From: Methylotenera sp. | GTDB taxonomy: Bacteria > Pseudomonadota > Gammaproteobacteria > Burkholderiales > Methylophilaceae | Direction of reading: 5' to 3' | DNA: 64,000 bases | Assembly: GCF_029946165.1 (NCBI RefSeq) | Contig: NZ_JAQSDZ010000005.1 | Coordinates: 248,001 to 312,000 of the forward strand | Part shown: in pieces, positions 54,750 to 61,515 of the stretch | Position numbering within the stretch: position 1 is the first letter of the stretch | Layout: each line of letters opens with the position of its first letter | Program-made: the position numbers and the translations under genes | Notes under the pieces: generated by a model | Seen by the model: only the letters and a program-made list of their open reading frames with translations | The model's database searches: none | What the model was told of the DNA's origin: nothing

Positions 54750-55898
54750 CTAATCCCAGCTTAAAGCACCGCCAGTTTGATACTCGGTCACGCGGGTTTC
54801 AAAGAAGTTTTTCTCTTTCTTTAAATCCATCATTTCACTCATCCATGGGAATGGATTTGTCGCCCCAGGATAAAGAATGTCTAAGCCAATCTGCGTGCAA
54901 CGACGATTGGCAATAAAACGTAAATATTCTTTAAACATCGTGGCATTTAGCCCTAGTACGCCGCGCGGCATAGTCGATTCTGCGTAACGATATTCTAGTT
55001 CTACACCTTGCTGCATCAAGCTTTTGATTTCTTCGCGGAATTCAGCTGTCCATAAATGCGGGTTCTCAAGTTTTATCGTGTTAATTACATCTATGCCAAA
55101 ATTACAGTGCATTGATTCATCACGTAAAATGTATTGGTATTGCTCAGCGGCCCCTTGCATTTTATTTTGACGACCGAGTGCAAGAATCTGCACAAAGCCT
55201 ACATAGAAAAATAAGCCTTCCATAATGCAAGCAAACACAATTAATGAGCGAAGCAGCTTTTGATCCGCCTCGGGCGTACCAGTTTTAAATGTAGGGTCAG
55301 TTAAAATGTTGATGAACGGAATTAAAAAATCATCTTTATCTTTGATACTCGCCACTTCTTGGTAGGCGTTAAAAACCTCTGACTCGTCTAAACCCAAACT
55401 TTCTACGATATATTGATAAGCATGCGTGTGAATTGCCTCCTCAAAACCTTGACGTAGCAAGTATTGGCGACATTCAGGCGCGGTAATATGGCGGTAAGTA
55501 CCGAGCACGATATTGTTCGCTGCGAGTGAGTCAGCGGTAGTAAAAAAGCCTAAATTACGTTTAACGATTAAGCGCTCGTCATCCGTGAGAGCGGTGCTAT
55601 CTTTCCATTGTGCAATGTCTCGGCTCATACTCACCTCTTGCGGCATCCAATGGTTAGCACAGCCCGCTAAATACTTGTCCCATGCCCAATGGTATTTAAA
55701 CGGCACGAGTTGGTTAACGTCAGTTTGGCCGTTAATCATGCGTTTATCAGAGGCGTTAACACGGCCGCTGAATGCGGGTTGATTGGCGGCGACTGGTGCG
55801 GCTAATTGTGAAGTTAAAGCATTATTTTTCACTACTTTTAATGCTGGCGTTGTTATTGGTGTTTCTTCGAGTACCACATCATCTTCAAATGAAAGCAT
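54750..55898 (-). CDS. nrdB: Ribonucleoside-diphosphate reductase class Ia, beta subunit
   Basis: NrdB carries the di-iron centre and stable tyrosyl radical that starts ribonucleotide reduction. The protein has 382 residues. Metal ligands are recognisable in [21 protein letters not shown] and [10 protein letters not shown]. The Tyr four residues after the ligand His in EAIHTHAY matches the radical Tyr122 of E. coli, so this is a Tyr-radical (class Ia) rather than a class Ic enzyme. It follows nrdA on the same strand, separated by a REP-like repeat. Confidence 0.96.
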
Positions 55899-56013: not shown

Positions 56014-58812
56014 TTATTGGCAAGATTCACATTCTGGATTGTCTATCGAACACAACTTCGGGGCTTCTTCTACGCCCGCCGAAACTGCATTCAACTCGCC
56101 ACCCGAGCCTGTCGATTTCTCCGCCGCTGTTGCACCTAATGACCGTAAGTAGTAAGTAGTTTTCAAACCGCGTTGCCATGCCAACAAGTAGGTGTCATTC
56201 AGTTTTTTGCCAGATGGCACAGCAAAATACAAATTGAGTGATTGCGCTTGGTCAATCCATTTTTGGCGACGCGCTGCGGCTTCAATTAACCAAGTTGGAT
56301 CAACATCAAACGCAGTTGCGTATAGCTGTTTTAAATCAGCTGGTACGCGGTCTATTTTTTGTAATGAGCCATCAAAGTATTTTAAATCAGACACCATGAC
56401 GGCATCCCAAAGTCCACGCGCTTTTAGGTCAATCACCAACTGCTCATTCACAATAGTGAATTCGCCAGATAAGTTAGATTTAACGTATAGGTTTTGGTAT
56501 TCAGGCTCAATGCTCGCAGAAACACCAACAATGTTAGAAATGGTTGCCGTGGGTGCAATGGCCACGCAGTTAGAGTTGCGCATACCAACCTTTTGAATGC
56601 GGGTGCGCAAAGCATCCCAATCTAGCGTTTTGCTTCTATCAACTTCTACATTGCCGCCACGTTCATTAAGTAATAAATCTAATGTGTCTAGCGGCAAAAT
56701 ACCTTGATCCCACAAGCTGCCTTTAAAACTTGAATAGGCGCCACGCTCTTCTGCTAACACGGTTGAAGCGTAATAAGCGTTGTAGCACACCATTTCCATT
56801 GCATGGTCAGCAAATCCCACAGCTTCCATACTGGCGTAAGGAATCCGCATAGCATGCAAGCAATTTTGAAAGCCCATAATGCCCATGCCTACTGGTCTGT
56901 GACGGGTATTGGCATTTCTGGCTTTACCAACTGGGTAAAAATTAATGTCCACCACGTTGTCTAACATGCGCATGCCAATTTTAATAGTGGCTTGTAATTT
57001 TTCGGTATCAAGCACTAACTTGCCTTTAACTTCGGTTAAATGTTGCAATAAATTCACAGAACCCAAATTACACACGGCAATTTCAGTTTCTGATGTGTTT
57101 AGCGTGATCTCTGTACACAGGTTTGAGCTATGCACCACGCCCACATGTTGCTGTGGTGAACGAATATTGCATGGATCTTTGAATGTAATCCAAGGATGGC
57201 CTGTTTCAAATAACATAGAAAGCATCTTGCGCCACATTTGCAGAGCAGGAATTTTCTTAAACAGTTTGATTTCACCATTTTCAGCACGGCGCTCATATTC
57301 CACATAAGCGGTTTCAAAGGCTTTGCCGTATTTATCATGTAAATCTGGCACATCAGAAGGTGAGAATAATGTCCAATCACCAGCTTCAGTCACACGGCGC
57401 ATGAATAAATCGGGAATCCAATGCGCGGTATTCATGTCATGCGTGCGGCGACGGTCATCGCCTGTGTTTTTGCGTAAATCTAAAAACTCTTCAATGTCTA
57501 AGTGCCAAGTTTCCAAATATCCACAGACTGCACCTTTGCGTTTGCCGCCTTGATTCACGGCAACAGCCGTATCATTTACGACTTTTAAAAATGGAATTAC
57601 ACCTTGACTCTTGCCGTTTGTACCTTTAATGCGCGCGCCCAAAGAACGCACTGGCGTCCAGTCATTGCCTAAGCCGCCTGCGTATTTTTGCAGCATGGCA
57701 TTCTCTTTAATGCCTTGATAAATTCCGTCTAAATCATCACTGACGGTCGTTAAGTAGCAAGAAGAAAGCTGAGAGTGAAGGGTGCCAGCGTTAAATAAAG
57801 TAGGGGTCGAGCTCATAAAATCGAACTTACTCAAAACATTGTAGAACTCTATTGCACGGCTTTCGCGGTCTATCTCATTAATCGCTAAACCCATCGCTAC
57901 GCGCATAAAGAAAATTTGCGGTAACTCAATTCGGCGTTCTTCAATATGTAAAAAGTAACGGTCATATAAGGTTTGTATGCCTAAATAACCAAATTGAAAA
58001 TCACGTTCTTTGATCAAAGCAGCCGCTAGTTTAGTTAAGTCAAATTGGGCTAATCTTGAATCTAGCAATTCTGCAGCTATGCCTAATTTGATATAACGAG
58101 GAAAATACTCCGCGTAATGAGCATCCATTTCAGCATGGCTCACACGTTCGCCGAGCACTTCAGCTCGTACTAAATCTAATTGCAAACGGGCGGTCACGTA
58201 ATTGTAGGCCGGCTCAGTTTCAATCAGGCTACGAGCAGACAGAATCAGCGCTTTATAGACTTCTGTAAATGGAATGCCGTTGTACAAATCGCGAACTGCT
58301 TGCTCTACCACTAGGCTTGGTTGAACGCTTTCTAAGTTTAAGCAAGCCTCACTCACCATTTCATTGAGTTGATTAATATCCAGAGGAATCAGTTTTCCAT
58401 CCATATTCACACTAAGCAAATGCATAGGCTCTGTAGATGTATGGGTCGCTTTTTCTGCAGCGCGTTCAGCATTGCGTTTTTCACGGTAAAGAACATAGGC
58501 ACGTGCCACATCGTGGTTGCCACTGCGCATGAGTGCTAATTCAACTTGGTCTTGAATATCTTCAATATGGATCGAACCGCCAGTAGGCAAGCGACGCATT
58601 AAAGCATGGTTAACTAATTGACTTAATGTGGCGACTTGATCGCGCACACGTTGCGAGGCGCCGCTTTGGTTACCTTCAACCGCTAAAAATGCTTTGGTGA
58701 TTGCGATAGTAATTTTATCGAGTGTAAATTGAACTGCAGCGCCGTTGCGACGAATGACTTGCATTGTGGGTAAAGATAAATCTGAGTTAACAGAAGGTCT
58801 GACATCATCCAT
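56014..58812 (-). CDS. nrdA: Ribonucleoside-diphosphate reductase class Ia, alpha subunit
   Basis: NrdA is the catalytic subunit that reduces ribonucleoside diphosphates. I use the ATG at 58812 (932 residues, MDDVRPSVNSDLSLPTMQVI), which follows AGGGA. The longer frame to 58935 is leader sequence. An ATP-cone (about residues 15-107, VIRRNGAAVQFTLDKITIAI) is followed by a second ATP-cone-like region (about 120-210), as in Pseudomonas NrdA. Active-site residues are in SSCYLTTV, SSNLCTEI (thiyl Cys) and AVCNLGSVNLL. The tail DNPECESC has the redox cysteines. Control is by a cobalamin riboswitch and probable NrdR boxes. Confidence 0.96.
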   Translation of the reverse strand: MDDVRPSVNSDLSLPTMQVIRRNGAAVQFTLDKITIAITKAFLAVEGNQSGASQRVRDQVATLSQLVNHALMRRLPTGGSIHIEDIQDQVELALMRSGNHDVARAYVLYREKRNAERAAEKATHTSTEPMHLLSVNMDGKLIPLDINQLNEMVSEACLNLESVQPSLVVEQAVRDLYNGIPFTEVYKALILSARSLIETEPAYNYVTARLQLDLVRAEVLGERVSHAEMDAHYAEYFPRYIKLGIAAELLDSRLAQFDLTKLAAALIKERDFQFGYLGIQTLYDRYFLHIEERRIELPQIFFMRVAMGLAINEIDRESRAIEFYNVLSKFDFMSSTPTLFNAGTLHSQLSSCYLTTVSDDLDGIYQGIKENAMLQKYAGGLGNDWTPVRSLGARIKGTNGKSQGVIPFLKVVNDTAVAVNQGGKRKGAVCGYLETWHLDIEEFLDLRKNTGDDRRRTHDMNTAHWIPDLFMRRVTEAGDWTLFSPSDVPDLHDKYGKAFETAYVEYERRAENGEIKLFKKIPALQMWRKMLSMLFETGHPWITFKDPCNIRSPQQHVGVVHSSNLCTEITLNTSETEIAVCNLGSVNLLQHLTEVKGKLVLDTEKLQATIKIGMRMLDNVVDINFYPVGKARNANTRHRPVGMGIMGFQNCLHAMRIPYASMEAVGFADHAMEMVCYNAYYASTVLAEERGAYSSFKGSLWDQGILPLDTLDLLLNERGGNVEVDRSKTLDWDALRTRIQKVGMRNSNCVAIAPTATISNIVGVSASIEPEYQNLYVKSNLSGEFTIVNEQLVIDLKARGLWDAVMVSDLKYFDGSLQKIDRVPADLKQLYATAFDVDPTWLIEAAARRQKWIDQAQSLNLYFAVPSGKKLNDTYLLAWQRGLKTTYYLRSLGATAAEKSTGSGGELNAVSAGVEEAPKLCSIDNPECESCQ

Positions 58813-58821
58813 TTGGATATT

Positions 58822-58838
58822 CCCTTTTTCAAAAAGGG
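58822..58838 (-). promoter_or_regulatory. Hairpin covering the nrdA ribosome-binding site
   Basis: On the transcribed strand CCCTTTTT and AAAAAGGG form a complementary pair 9-10 bp before the nrdA start. The AGGGA ribosome-binding site lies in the right arm, so folding would block initiation. This fits a translational expression platform for the upstream riboswitch, though the stem has only three G-C pairs. Confidence 0.5.
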
Positions 58839-58906
58839 CAGGTAGCTTTAAAATTGGCGCGACTAGCTGACATGGAGTCTGCGCAAATATTAAAAACAGC
58901 ATGGCG

Positions 58907-58935
58907 AATAGTGAATGCACCAATAGTGAATGCAC
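58907..58935. repeat. Tandem 14-bp direct repeat in the nrdA leader
   Basis: AATAGTGAATGCAC occurs at 58907-58920 and 58922-58935, exact copies with a period of 15 bp. It lies between the riboswitch and the nrdA start; the second copy also includes an out-of-use ATG. The role is unknown. Confidence 0.7.
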
Positions 58936-58980
58936 TAGTCATCTGCCGAGGACACCCCGCCTCAAACGTTATAAAAATAT

Positions 58981-59022
58981 TTTTGCGCATTCCAACCATG
59001 ATTAAATTTAATCATCGCAAAA
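58981..59022 (-). promoter_or_regulatory. Nested hairpins downstream of the riboswitch (possible terminator platform)
   Basis: On the minus strand an outer pair TTTTGCG/CGCAAAA (59016-59022 and 58981-58987) encloses an 18-bp perfect palindrome ATGATTAAATTTAATCAT (58998-59015). A T-containing stretch (ATATTTTTAT) follows. It lies just after the aptamer and could be a terminator or antiterminator element. Confidence 0.45.
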
Positions 59023-59033
59023 TACACAAAAAC

Positions 59034-59253
59034 GCACACGGCAGGTCTCCTGGCTTTCAGGTCATCATGATTTGTTGGCCTTCCCAAATTGACAATCCAA
59101 TTCAGTGGCAAGTGCTTTTAACTAAGCGTAACAAATTACTCGCTGATTACAGTTGCGGGGGCAGCTAGGGCATAAGTGTTTGAAAATATGACTCAAACAT
59201 CGCACCGTATTCCCTTTTATCTTAGGTTTTGACTAAAACTTAAGAACCGTGTG
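59034..59253 (-). ncRNA. Cobalamin (adenosylcobalamin) riboswitch upstream of nrdA
   Basis: Read on the minus strand, the core elements of the cobalamin aptamer appear in order and spacing. They are GGGAATACGGTG (near 59202-59213), GCTGCCCCCGCAACTGTAA (59146-59164), and the B12-box AAGCCAGGAGACCTGCC (59041-59057). Flanking CACACGG (near 59253) and CCGTGTG (near 59035-59041) close the P1 stem. The aptamer begins within a few bases of the predicted transcription start. In known cases cobalamin binding represses the downstream gene, here nrdA and probably nrdB. Confidence 0.95.
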
Positions 59254-59259
59254 ATAAGA

Positions 59260-59288
59260 CTATAACGCAATATAGCGGAAAGTTACAA
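59260..59288 (-). promoter_or_regulatory. Predicted nrdA promoter
   Basis: On the minus strand the -35 is TTGTAA (59283-59288) and the -10 is TTATAG (59260-59265), with a 17-bp spacer. Transcription would start at about 59253-59254, exactly at the riboswitch P1 stem. Confidence 0.6.
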
Positions 59289-59311
59289 TATAAAATCACT
59301 ATATGTTGATT
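59265..59311. promoter_or_regulatory. Paired NrdR-like boxes at the nrdA promoter
   Basis: Two 16-bp sequences resemble the NrdR consensus ACACWATATATWGTGT. Box A is ACGCAATATAGCGGAA (59265-59280, about 10 of 16, core CAATATA). Box B is TCACTATATGTTGATT (59296-59311, about 12 of 16). Their centres are exactly 31 bp apart, the three-turn spacing known for NrdR box pairs. Box A covers the promoter spacer and box B lies just upstream of -35, so NrdR binding would repress. Confidence 0.6.
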
Positions 59312-59571
59312 AAATTTTAGAAGGTTATTTAATGCGATTGAATAAATAATGGAATTTTAGCTTAACTAAAATGCGCACTAGCAATATTGCGTAAAAGCAA
59401 TTGTTTAATAGCAAGCTTTCATCCAGTGTGGGCTTGTTGGGGTATGAGTTCGAGATAAACTGGTTTATCTGTTTGTAGACAAGTACACCATTATTGAAAT
59501 TTTTAACGAACTATCTTCTAATGACACTTATTGACTTCATCTTAGAGTTTTTTGCTTCACGAAACTAAAGG

Positions 59572-61515
59572 TTATTGTTGATACTTACAGACCCGATTGC
59601 GTCCATCGCCCTTGGCTTTATAAAGCGCTTGGTCGGCTCGATTCAACAGCATATCCACAGTGTCATTTTTTTCCTCAAGTGTCACCACGCCAAATGAAGC
59701 CGTGAAATGCAGTGACAATCCGTTGTCTAGTTGCACTGCTGTAGAAGAAAGCGCAATTCGCAAGCGTTCAGCAGTTTCCATGGCGGTTTCTATCGATGTT
59801 TCTGGCAGTAAAATAGCAAATTCTTCGCCACCAATTCGTCCGATAATATCAATGGCGCGTAGCGAGGCAAGGCAGATTTCCGCCAATTTTTTTAAGACTA
59901 CGTCGCCTGCCTCGTGGCCGTAGTTATCGTTAACCTGTTTAAAATGATCTATGTCCAGCATCAAAATAGACAATTTTTTACTATAACGCAGGGCGCGTGC
60001 CAATTCATTTTCTGCTTTTTCAAAAAAGTAGCGGCGGTTGGCCAGGCCCGTCAAATAGTCTGTATATGCACGGCGTTCCAACTCTTCCAGCGCATAGCGG
60101 TTTTCAATAGCAATAGCAGAAAGATTTGCAGCGTAGCCTATGCGTTCAATATCCCAAGGTTTTGGAATTTTTGGCTCGGTATGATAAATAGCAAATGTTC
60201 CCAGCACTTTGTCGCGAGAAGAAATAATAGGTTCCGACCAACATGCACGCAATCCAGCCTTTTGCGCTAAATGAGCGTACGGCTTCCAAAGCTCATTTGT
60301 CTGAATATCTTCAGCAATTACGCGCTGACCAAGATAGGCTGCTGTACCACAGCAACCCACATTTGGGCCGATTTCTACTCCCTCGAGGGCATTGTTGTAG
60401 GATTCTGGCAGACTGGGCGCGGCGCCAGTATGAAGGCACTTTCCTTCAAAATCTAATAGCATAATGCTACAAAGGGCGGTTTTATCCTCCCGCTCAATCT
60501 CTTGAACGATAGCAATAAGAATGTCATTTAATTTAGCTCCTCTGGCCACCATTCCCAGCATTGCATCATGCGCCTGCTCGCGTTGCTCGCTTTTCCAATG
60601 TTCAGTAATGTCGGTAAAATTGACCAGTCGGCGCTGCGCGACCCGTGATGCTCTAATGATAACACGTCGGACACTACCATCTTTGCAGACAATATCGGCT
60701 TCCAAGCCACTTTGGTGTGAACGCGCTACATCCCTTAACCATGGACGGATAACACTCTCTCGATAGTTCTCGTCTGGGTAGGCTAGACGGTACCATGTTT
60801 CTAAATTAGGCAAGTCACTGAGTTCATACCCAAACAATTGGGTGAATTGAAGGTTGATGTATTCTATCCGCCCATCGTCATCAGACCAGCCGATTGCAAT
60901 TGGAGAAAAATTTAGAATATCCTCAAGCTGGATTCGTTTTTCGGTGTTAACACTAATCTCATGCTCCAGCGTAGCTTGCCTGAGCCTAGCGAGTCCGCTT
61001 GCAGCGAGCGTTTGAGCCATTCCCACCATGACGGTCATGAGAGCTTCAGCGTGAGACTTATCAATGATCGGAACAGACTCAATTGATTTCATATATTCTA
61101 TTTCGTCAAACCCGAACTTCTCTGCCTGATTTCTAAAGAACTCCAAATCAGGTGCTGTGTGCAGAACCTGTCCCAAAAACAAGGTGGCTAGTTGCTGGCC
61201 TTCTACTACCACTGGCGTGGCATAATCCATCAATCCGTTGTGGCATAGGCTGTTAGCAACGTGGCCGTCACGCAAGTCATGCATGATAGCTAAATTGCTT
61301 TCGCGACAACGCTGGGCAGTTTCTGGGTGGGCGCGATGATAGCGCGTACAGGCATTTTCCCAGCCAGCCTGACTAAGCAACTCGCCATTTACATCCACCA
61401 GCCCATTGGAAATGCCAGTTGCCTTAGCGAAGCTTTCCAGCATGCTTGCAAATGCTGAAAGATCAACTAAGTCAGCGAAGCGATATTGGGTTTTATCGGT
61501 AACGTTGCGAGCCAT
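59572..61515 (-). CDS. Diguanylate cyclase with PocR, PAS and GAF sensor domains
   Basis: This 647-residue signalling protein makes cyclic di-GMP. The order is a PocR ligand-sensing domain (about residues 12-175) with conserved cysteines in ENACTRYHR, AQRCRES and NSLCHNGLMDYA; a PAS domain (about 200-310, ILNFSPIAIGWSDDDGRIEY); a GAF domain (about 325-475) with VGCCGTAAYLGQ; and a GGDEF domain (about 485-645). The active site is GGEEF and the inhibitory RxxD site (RAID) is five residues before it, so it should be active and product-inhibited. It lies upstream of nrdA on the same strand. Confidence 0.93.
   Translation of the reverse strand: MARNVTDKTQYRFADLVDLSAFASMLESFAKATGISNGLVDVNGELLSQAGWENACTRYHRAHPETAQRCRESNLAIMHDLRDGHVANSLCHNGLMDYATPVVVEGQQLATLFLGQVLHTAPDLEFFRNQAEKFGFDEIEYMKSIESVPIIDKSHAEALMTVMVGMAQTLAASGLARLRQATLEHEISVNTEKRIQLEDILNFSPIAIGWSDDDGRIEYINLQFTQLFGYELSDLPNLETWYRLAYPDENYRESVIRPWLRDVARSHQSGLEADIVCKDGSVRRVIIRASRVAQRRLVNFTDITEHWKSEQREQAHDAMLGMVARGAKLNDILIAIVQEIEREDKTALCSIMLLDFEGKCLHTGAAPSLPESYNNALEGVEIGPNVGCCGTAAYLGQRVIAEDIQTNELWKPYAHLAQKAGLRACWSEPIISSRDKVLGTFAIYHTEPKIPKPWDIERIGYAANLSAIAIENRYALEELERRAYTDYLTGLANRRYFFEKAENELARALRYSKKLSILMLDIDHFKQVNDNYGHEAGDVVLKKLAEICLASLRAIDIIGRIGGEEFAILLPETSIETAMETAERLRIALSSTAVQLDNGLSLHFTASFGVVTLEEKNDTVDMLLNRADQALYKAKGDGRNRVCKYQQ

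Follow-up and report, generated by a model that had tools for sequence, protein, structure and literature searches.

A cobalamin riboswitch before class Ia ribonucleotide reductase genes in Methylotenera and other Methylophilaceae

The nrdAB locus and its leader

The window analysed here, a 64,000-nucleotide stretch of a Methylotenera sp. genome (G000:C5:248001-312000; genome G000 comprises 2.94 Mb in 27 contigs), carries on its minus strand a cobalamin riboswitch directly followed by the genes for both subunits of a class Ia ribonucleotide reductase (Table 1). The nrdA product contains the Pfam domains ATP-cone, Ribonuc_red_lgN and Ribonuc_red_lgC, and nrdB lies behind nrdA on the same strand, in agreement with an earlier note on this DNA that had named nrdA, with nrdB behind it, as the target of the switch. 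The start of nrdA is likely the ATG at 58812 and not the GTG at 58935, where the mechanical frame begins, because this ATG and its context are common to relatives.

Table 1 Features of the nrdAB locus and its leader, in window coordinates.
Feature	Position	Strand	Evidence
Possible NrdR box pair (lead only)	59265..59311 (59311-59296 and 59280-59265, 31 bases apart)	-	
Cobalamin riboswitch aptamer, RF00174	59023..59266	-	cmscan 98.1 bits, E 2.8e-23
Presumed conserved core with loop L5	59165-59147	-	motif position
Presumed B12 box	59056-59040	-	motif position
Conserved platform AACGTTTGAGGCGGGGTGTCCTC, P13 hairpin	58948..58970	-	position; conservation in leaders
Ribosome-binding-site hairpin of nrdA: C-rich strand CCTGCCCTTTTT and Shine-Dalgarno strand AAAAAGGGA	58821..58842	-	position; fold
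nrdA, class Ia ribonucleotide reductase large subunit (PRK07207 type)	56014..58812	-	NF005544 1684.6 bits, cut-off 965
nrdB, class Ia small subunit (PRK07209 type)	54750..55898	-	NF005550 685.5 bits, cut-off 309; PF00268 301.5 bits

The riboswitch was recovered at full length by cmscan of the 64 kb window, with a match that spans the whole RF00174 model (1–189; gathering score 31.5). The covariance model thus bears out the cobalamin aptamer proposed earlier upstream of nrdA, with the extent originally given, 59034-59253, giving way to that of the model match. Both of the motifs quoted at that time are present, at the positions that we take to be the conserved core with loop L5 and the B12 box. 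Downstream of the aptamer, the loop of the P13 hairpin (GCGGGG) is complementary, by eye, to aptamer loop L5 (CCCCGC), and the platform that contains it may act as the P13 partner of L5; an L5-L13 kissing loop of cobalamin riboswitches is described in the available part of PMC9600662. The platform differs by 0–2 mismatches in 53 of 54 family leaders and by four in the decayed leader of genome G043. In the minimum-energy fold of the window's Shine-Dalgarno hairpin (−6.8 kcal/mol), four of the five Shine-Dalgarno bases are paired.

The NrdR-like boxes of the window were equalled in score by 17 of 200 shuffles, and in 43 of the 53 leaders tested (G095, too short, was left out) box pairs were equalled by no more than 10 of 200; these figures are optimistic because the consensus, which we took from general knowledge to be that of NrdR boxes, was loosened on the same data. 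The stretch upstream of the switch encodes a PocR-PAS-GAF-GGDEF protein (59572-61515, minus strand) at the position that metE occupies in several relatives, and no metE match was found in the window's own genome.

Elsewhere in this genome, the sole other RF00174 match (G000:C3:7568-7850) precedes a gene for a TonB-dependent receptor, whose 447 N-terminal residues, all that the locus contains, score 364 bits against the B12 receptor model TIGR01779, with a cut-off of 599.7 meant for the whole protein. The genome also encodes NrdJ, the B12-dependent class II reductase (G000:C8:5540-7702; TIGR02504, 565.8 bits, cut-off 399.95), as had been predicted from the window. A 234-residue protein encoded 3' of NrdJ aligns with the C-terminal portion of a B12-dependent reductase model at 50.5 bits, far under that model's whole-protein cut-off, and the pair looks like the split NrdJa/NrdJb arrangement. 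A split NrdJ, as seems likely for the window's genome, is also present in Pseudomonas aeruginosa. According to the available part of PMC4465626, nrdJaJb is known in Azotobacter.

Distribution of the switch within and outside Methylophilaceae

The family sample comprised 150 genomes, assigned to Methylophilaceae by named members; NCBI places Methylobacillus and Methylophilus in this family. RF00174 matches were present in 141 of these genomes and NrdJ matches (E ≤ 1e-100) in 142, with a class I small subunit in 53 and missing from 97. Small-subunit scores divided the class I genes into the window's kind (31 genomes) and an E. coli-like kind (22 genomes). An nrdA of the window's kind was likewise found in 31 of the 150 at E ≤ 1e-200, the small subunit of G064 being a fragment only, and the E. 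coli-like kind was typed in one genome, G115, as PRK09103 (large subunit, 1506.5 bits) and PRK09101 (small subunit, 731.3 bits).

A switch precedes nrdA in 52 of the 53 class-I-bearing genomes, all 52 of which have NrdJ. It is present in 31/31 genomes with the window's kind, where it was placed by coordinates in 27 and by a separate check in G007, G017, G035 and G047, and in 21/22 with the E. coli-like kind. The coupling of switch and NrdJ in this family is near-perfect, and the arrangement predicts which of its methylotrophs depend on B12 for DNA precursors and which do not. Methylophilus methylotrophus and Methylobacillus flagellatus are examples of cultured species that have it. Among individual genomes, G149, of the same genus as the window, has two nrdAB copies, each with its own switch (L123, L307). 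In G071 (L300, L317), the nrdA frame is shortened and two open frames make up a broken nrdB, by decay or sequencing error. In G014, rated 99% complete, no PF02867 match (the ribonucleotide reductase barrel domain) was found at all.

Outside the family, the coupling does not hold. Among 160 genomes of the order, 135 have nrdA and 30 have NrdJ; a switch precedes nrdA in only 2 of 20 genomes with both enzymes, 18 being without one, and in 1 of 113 in which nrdA but not NrdJ was found. Rfam was applied here to the 20 NrdJ-positive leaders and to 16 loci flagged by a sequence pattern (two shared), the other NrdJ-negative leaders being screened by pattern alone; two NrdJ-negative leaders were shortened by contig ends (L183 to 354 bases, L188 to 846). 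This pattern, which allows up to 220 bases between core and B12 box, recovered 36/36 and 30/30 known switches; a similar one failed to detect L293 (61.3 bits), a genuine switch that carries a long insert. The two switch-bearing genomes with NrdJ belong to one genus, and their NrdJ is of the family's type, 81% identical to that of the window's genome. One locus outside the family, L260 (G247), has a switch of 86.5 bits before nrdA in a genome where NrdJ was not found at E ≤ 1e-60. Of 80 named nrdA loci, six have a switch before nrdA, including those of Methylovulum and Azospira; the other 74 were judged by pattern alone, a few with little upstream DNA (L045 153 bases, L049 351). A general rule by which the switch follows NrdJ across the order was considered and is not supported by the 2/20 and 1/113 counts; given these and the six named loci, the arrangement is best seen as peculiar to certain lineages.

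Two kinds of nrdAB, the metE island and a decayed switch

Both kinds of nrdAB stand in similar surroundings. B12-independent MetE was found in 50 of the 150 family genomes at E ≤ 1e-20 (47 over cut-off), and these include 49 of the 53 class I genomes; the other 97 genomes contributed one weak partial match of 87 bits. Of the 21 loci examined for neighbours, 11 are of the window's kind and 10 are E. coli-like; six of each have metE directly upstream of nrdA, with at most two frames between them, one of these 12 copies being truncated (G043) and one broken (G071). A LysR-type gene lies beyond metE on the opposite strand in all 12, and the one that was typed is MetR-like (212 bits, cut-off 382). 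In one locus, G002, metE lies downstream instead. A YfaE-like ferredoxin gene follows nrdB in 10/10 E. coli-like loci (one typed, 103.1 bits, cut-off 75). The B12 that these genomes use is probably taken up from outside, because CobM/CbiF exceeded its cut-off in 0/150 family genomes, compared with 5/14 control genomes; matches under the cut-off, present in 144/150, are probably related methyltransferases.

The aptamers before the two kinds of nrdAB group together in the aptamer tree, apart from 16 of 22 other switches examined; L144 (a duplicate), L293, L296 and the 14 loci already represented by other rows were left out of this tree, which does contain chance matches to the pattern (some of the 'ext' rows and one T2 row). 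The remaining six non-nrd switches, five from genus g10 (L085, L086, L088, L089, L090) and one from g19 (L101), fall among the nrd aptamers and are without the nrd platform. In a tree of 52 leaders (without G010 and G043), the E. coli-like leaders occupy three places, two of which adjoin leaders of the window's kind, on long branches, and a single clade of E. coli-like leaders was rejected at p 0.03 by an AU test run after the aptamer tree was known.

These patterns can be read in two ways: either one enzyme took the place of another behind a leader that stayed in position, or transfer moved or copied the leader along with its genes. Replacement appears slightly more likely: metE stands directly upstream in loci of either kind of nrdAB, and some E. 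coli-like leaders lie next to those of the window's kind. Joint transfer nevertheless retains an appreciable chance, if one short of even: the downstream neighbours of the two kinds differ, even inside genus g19, the leader tree is long-branched and rejects a single E. coli-like clade only at p 0.03, and the platform is shared by Methylovulum and a MAG named Methylomicrobium. The near-identity of the nrdA leader platform in these last two (L005, Methylovulum miyakonense, and L007) suggests transfer among methylotrophs. If two enzymes do stand behind one leader through replacement, a riboswitch can outlast the gene under its control.

The only exception to the coupling within the family is G043, identified as Methylobacillus rhizosphaerae by an identical NrdA. 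It is the sole genome without an NrdJ match among the 53 with class I genes: NrdJ was not found at E ≤ 1e-40, and its single PF02867 match is its NrdA. Loss of NrdJ in an assembly gap is possible but unlikely, because the assembly has 20 contigs and 99% completeness. The G043 leader can be aligned to those of sister species but has lost the aptamer core and the B12 box, with no RF00174 match even at E ≤ 10. Its P13 loop has changed from GG to AA, yet P13 can still pair with the C-rich strand that precedes the ribosome-binding site (−16.4 kcal/mol, z −3.86, the lowest z among 53 leaders). A truncated metE lies beside this decayed leader (L296, L314), and a full-length metE is present elsewhere in the genome. 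That loss of NrdJ goes with loss of the switch is seen in this one genome, and G043, an isolate with a decayed switch and no NrdJ match, is a natural experiment on what maintains switches of this type.

The same observations bear on whether the riboswitch has any function in these genomes. It might be inherited baggage of little effect, with nrdAB governed mainly by NrdR and the need for dNTPs, as would be allowed by the NrdR-like box pairs upstream in many leaders and by the fact that, outside the family, most sampled genomes of the order run nrdAB without a switch. We consider this very improbable given that the switch is kept before two different nrdAB kinds in all but one of the class I family genomes, that its platform string is near-invariant, and that it has decayed only where NrdJ was not found.

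Taken as a whole, the Methylophilaceae switch may be a resident socket into which different class Ia enzymes have been plugged, within an island of genes for B12-independent isozymes (in the order metR-like gene, metE, switch, nrdA, nrdB). The switch would be kept only while NrdJ is kept, and loss of NrdJ would let the aptamer decay with preservation of the pairing that keeps nrdA translation on. We put this model forward tentatively, at close to an even chance.

Proposed control of nrdAB and comparison with known systems

Computation shows the presence of the aptamer and of both enzymes, and how closely switch and NrdJ are coupled across the family. Because the family also has B12-dependent NrdJ, the spare class Ia enzyme is probably made only when B12 is short. 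We think it highly probable that in the presence of B12 the riboswitch silences the B12-independent class Ia enzyme and NrdJ works in its place, and that nrdAB is made when B12 is scarce; the direction of this control, with B12 as the repressing signal, and its mechanism at nrdA are what we infer. The sequence evidence in this way supports the interpretation of the earlier note, in which cobalamin supply chooses between the two reductases.

B12 probably blocks translation of nrdA, because a hairpin covers the nrdA ribosome-binding site and a search of 58780-59560 gave no terminator-like site. Binding of B12 would let the P13 loop engage loop L5 of the aptamer and leave the ribosome-binding site enclosed in its hairpin; with B12 absent, the G-rich P13 strand would pair with the C-rich strand of the hairpin and so free the ribosome-binding site. 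Folding supports this scheme in part. When the 40 bases that precede the start codon are folded to minimum energy, 52 of 53 leaders have at least three of the five Shine-Dalgarno bases in pairs (L300, in which no start was found, was left out of these folds and of the pairing z-scores). The freeing pairing is weak relative to shuffles: z averages −0.62 over the 32 leaders of the window's kind and −1.05 over the 21 E. coli-like leaders. Breaking P13 in folding raised Shine-Dalgarno accessibility by more than 0.1 in 21 of 52 leaders and lowered it in none, with no clear change in the other 31, including that of the window (0.19 to 0.26); the accessibility averages also leave out G043. Since the freeing pairing is mostly no better than in shuffles and a clear rise was seen in only 21 of 52 leaders, translational control, in which the L5-L13 contact would form the OFF state, is proposed here as the most likely reading.

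Control of transcription within the leader, by Rho-dependent or intrinsic termination, is the alternative. The Streptomyces nrdABS cobalamin riboswitch reportedly acts on transcription, to judge by the title of Borovok 2006. In Propionibacterium acnes, nrdAB transcripts appear to end largely before the first gene, according to the available part of PMC3848588. Such a mechanism is unlikely here, if still worth considering, given the lack of a terminator-like site in the searched interval and the inclusion of the Shine-Dalgarno sequence in a hairpin in nearly all leaders.

Precedents exist outside this lineage for an nrdAB that is under B12 control where NrdJ can take over. Such control is known from Streptomyces, reportedly and by title, and the likeness is close: a B12 riboswitch stands before class Ia nrdAB, and NrdJ is encoded in the same genome. 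The differences lie in the host, an actinomycete compared with a methylotrophic betaproteobacterium, and in the level of control, which is transcription by title in Streptomyces, whereas the layout of the window points to translation. For P. acnes, the available part of PMC3848588 describes a cobalamin riboswitch on nrdAB (and not on nrdRJ) with an NrdR box at the nrdAB promoter, and proposes, from the nrdAB and nrdDG leaders, the same choice of reductase as is suggested for the window. According to that part of the paper, genes for B12 synthesis are expressed in P. acnes, and transcription of nrdAB there seems to stop within the leader (PMC3848588), whereas in Methylophilaceae CobM/CbiF is not over cut-off and one leader type serves two nrdAB kinds.

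Among the literature matches listed, we found no report of a cobalamin riboswitch before nrdAB in Methylophilaceae, nor, in print, of the Methylophilaceae lineage of this arrangement, of two enzymes behind one leader or of the decay case; the enzyme swap and the decay case are the parts that a specialist might not expect. The sole switch of the family mentioned in the available part of PMC9004378 is the btuB cobalamin riboswitch of OM43 strain H5P1, which the window's genome resembles in also having one before a btuB-like gene. Unlike that switch, the one described here has nrdA as its target, and 16 of the 22 non-nrd switches of the family form a clade of their own. P. aeruginosa resembles the window's genome in encoding class Ia NrdAB and class II NrdJ together (PMC5962746, available part). 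Isozymes of B12-dependent enzymes, for example metE, are recognised targets of cobalamin riboswitches according to the available parts of PMC2211319 and PMC3766115, and the window's switch follows the same logic, with a B12-independent isozyme under B12 control where a B12-dependent one exists. Unlike metE-type switches, it faces nrdA, and metE, where it is nearby in the family, lies upstream of the switch, or downstream in G002.
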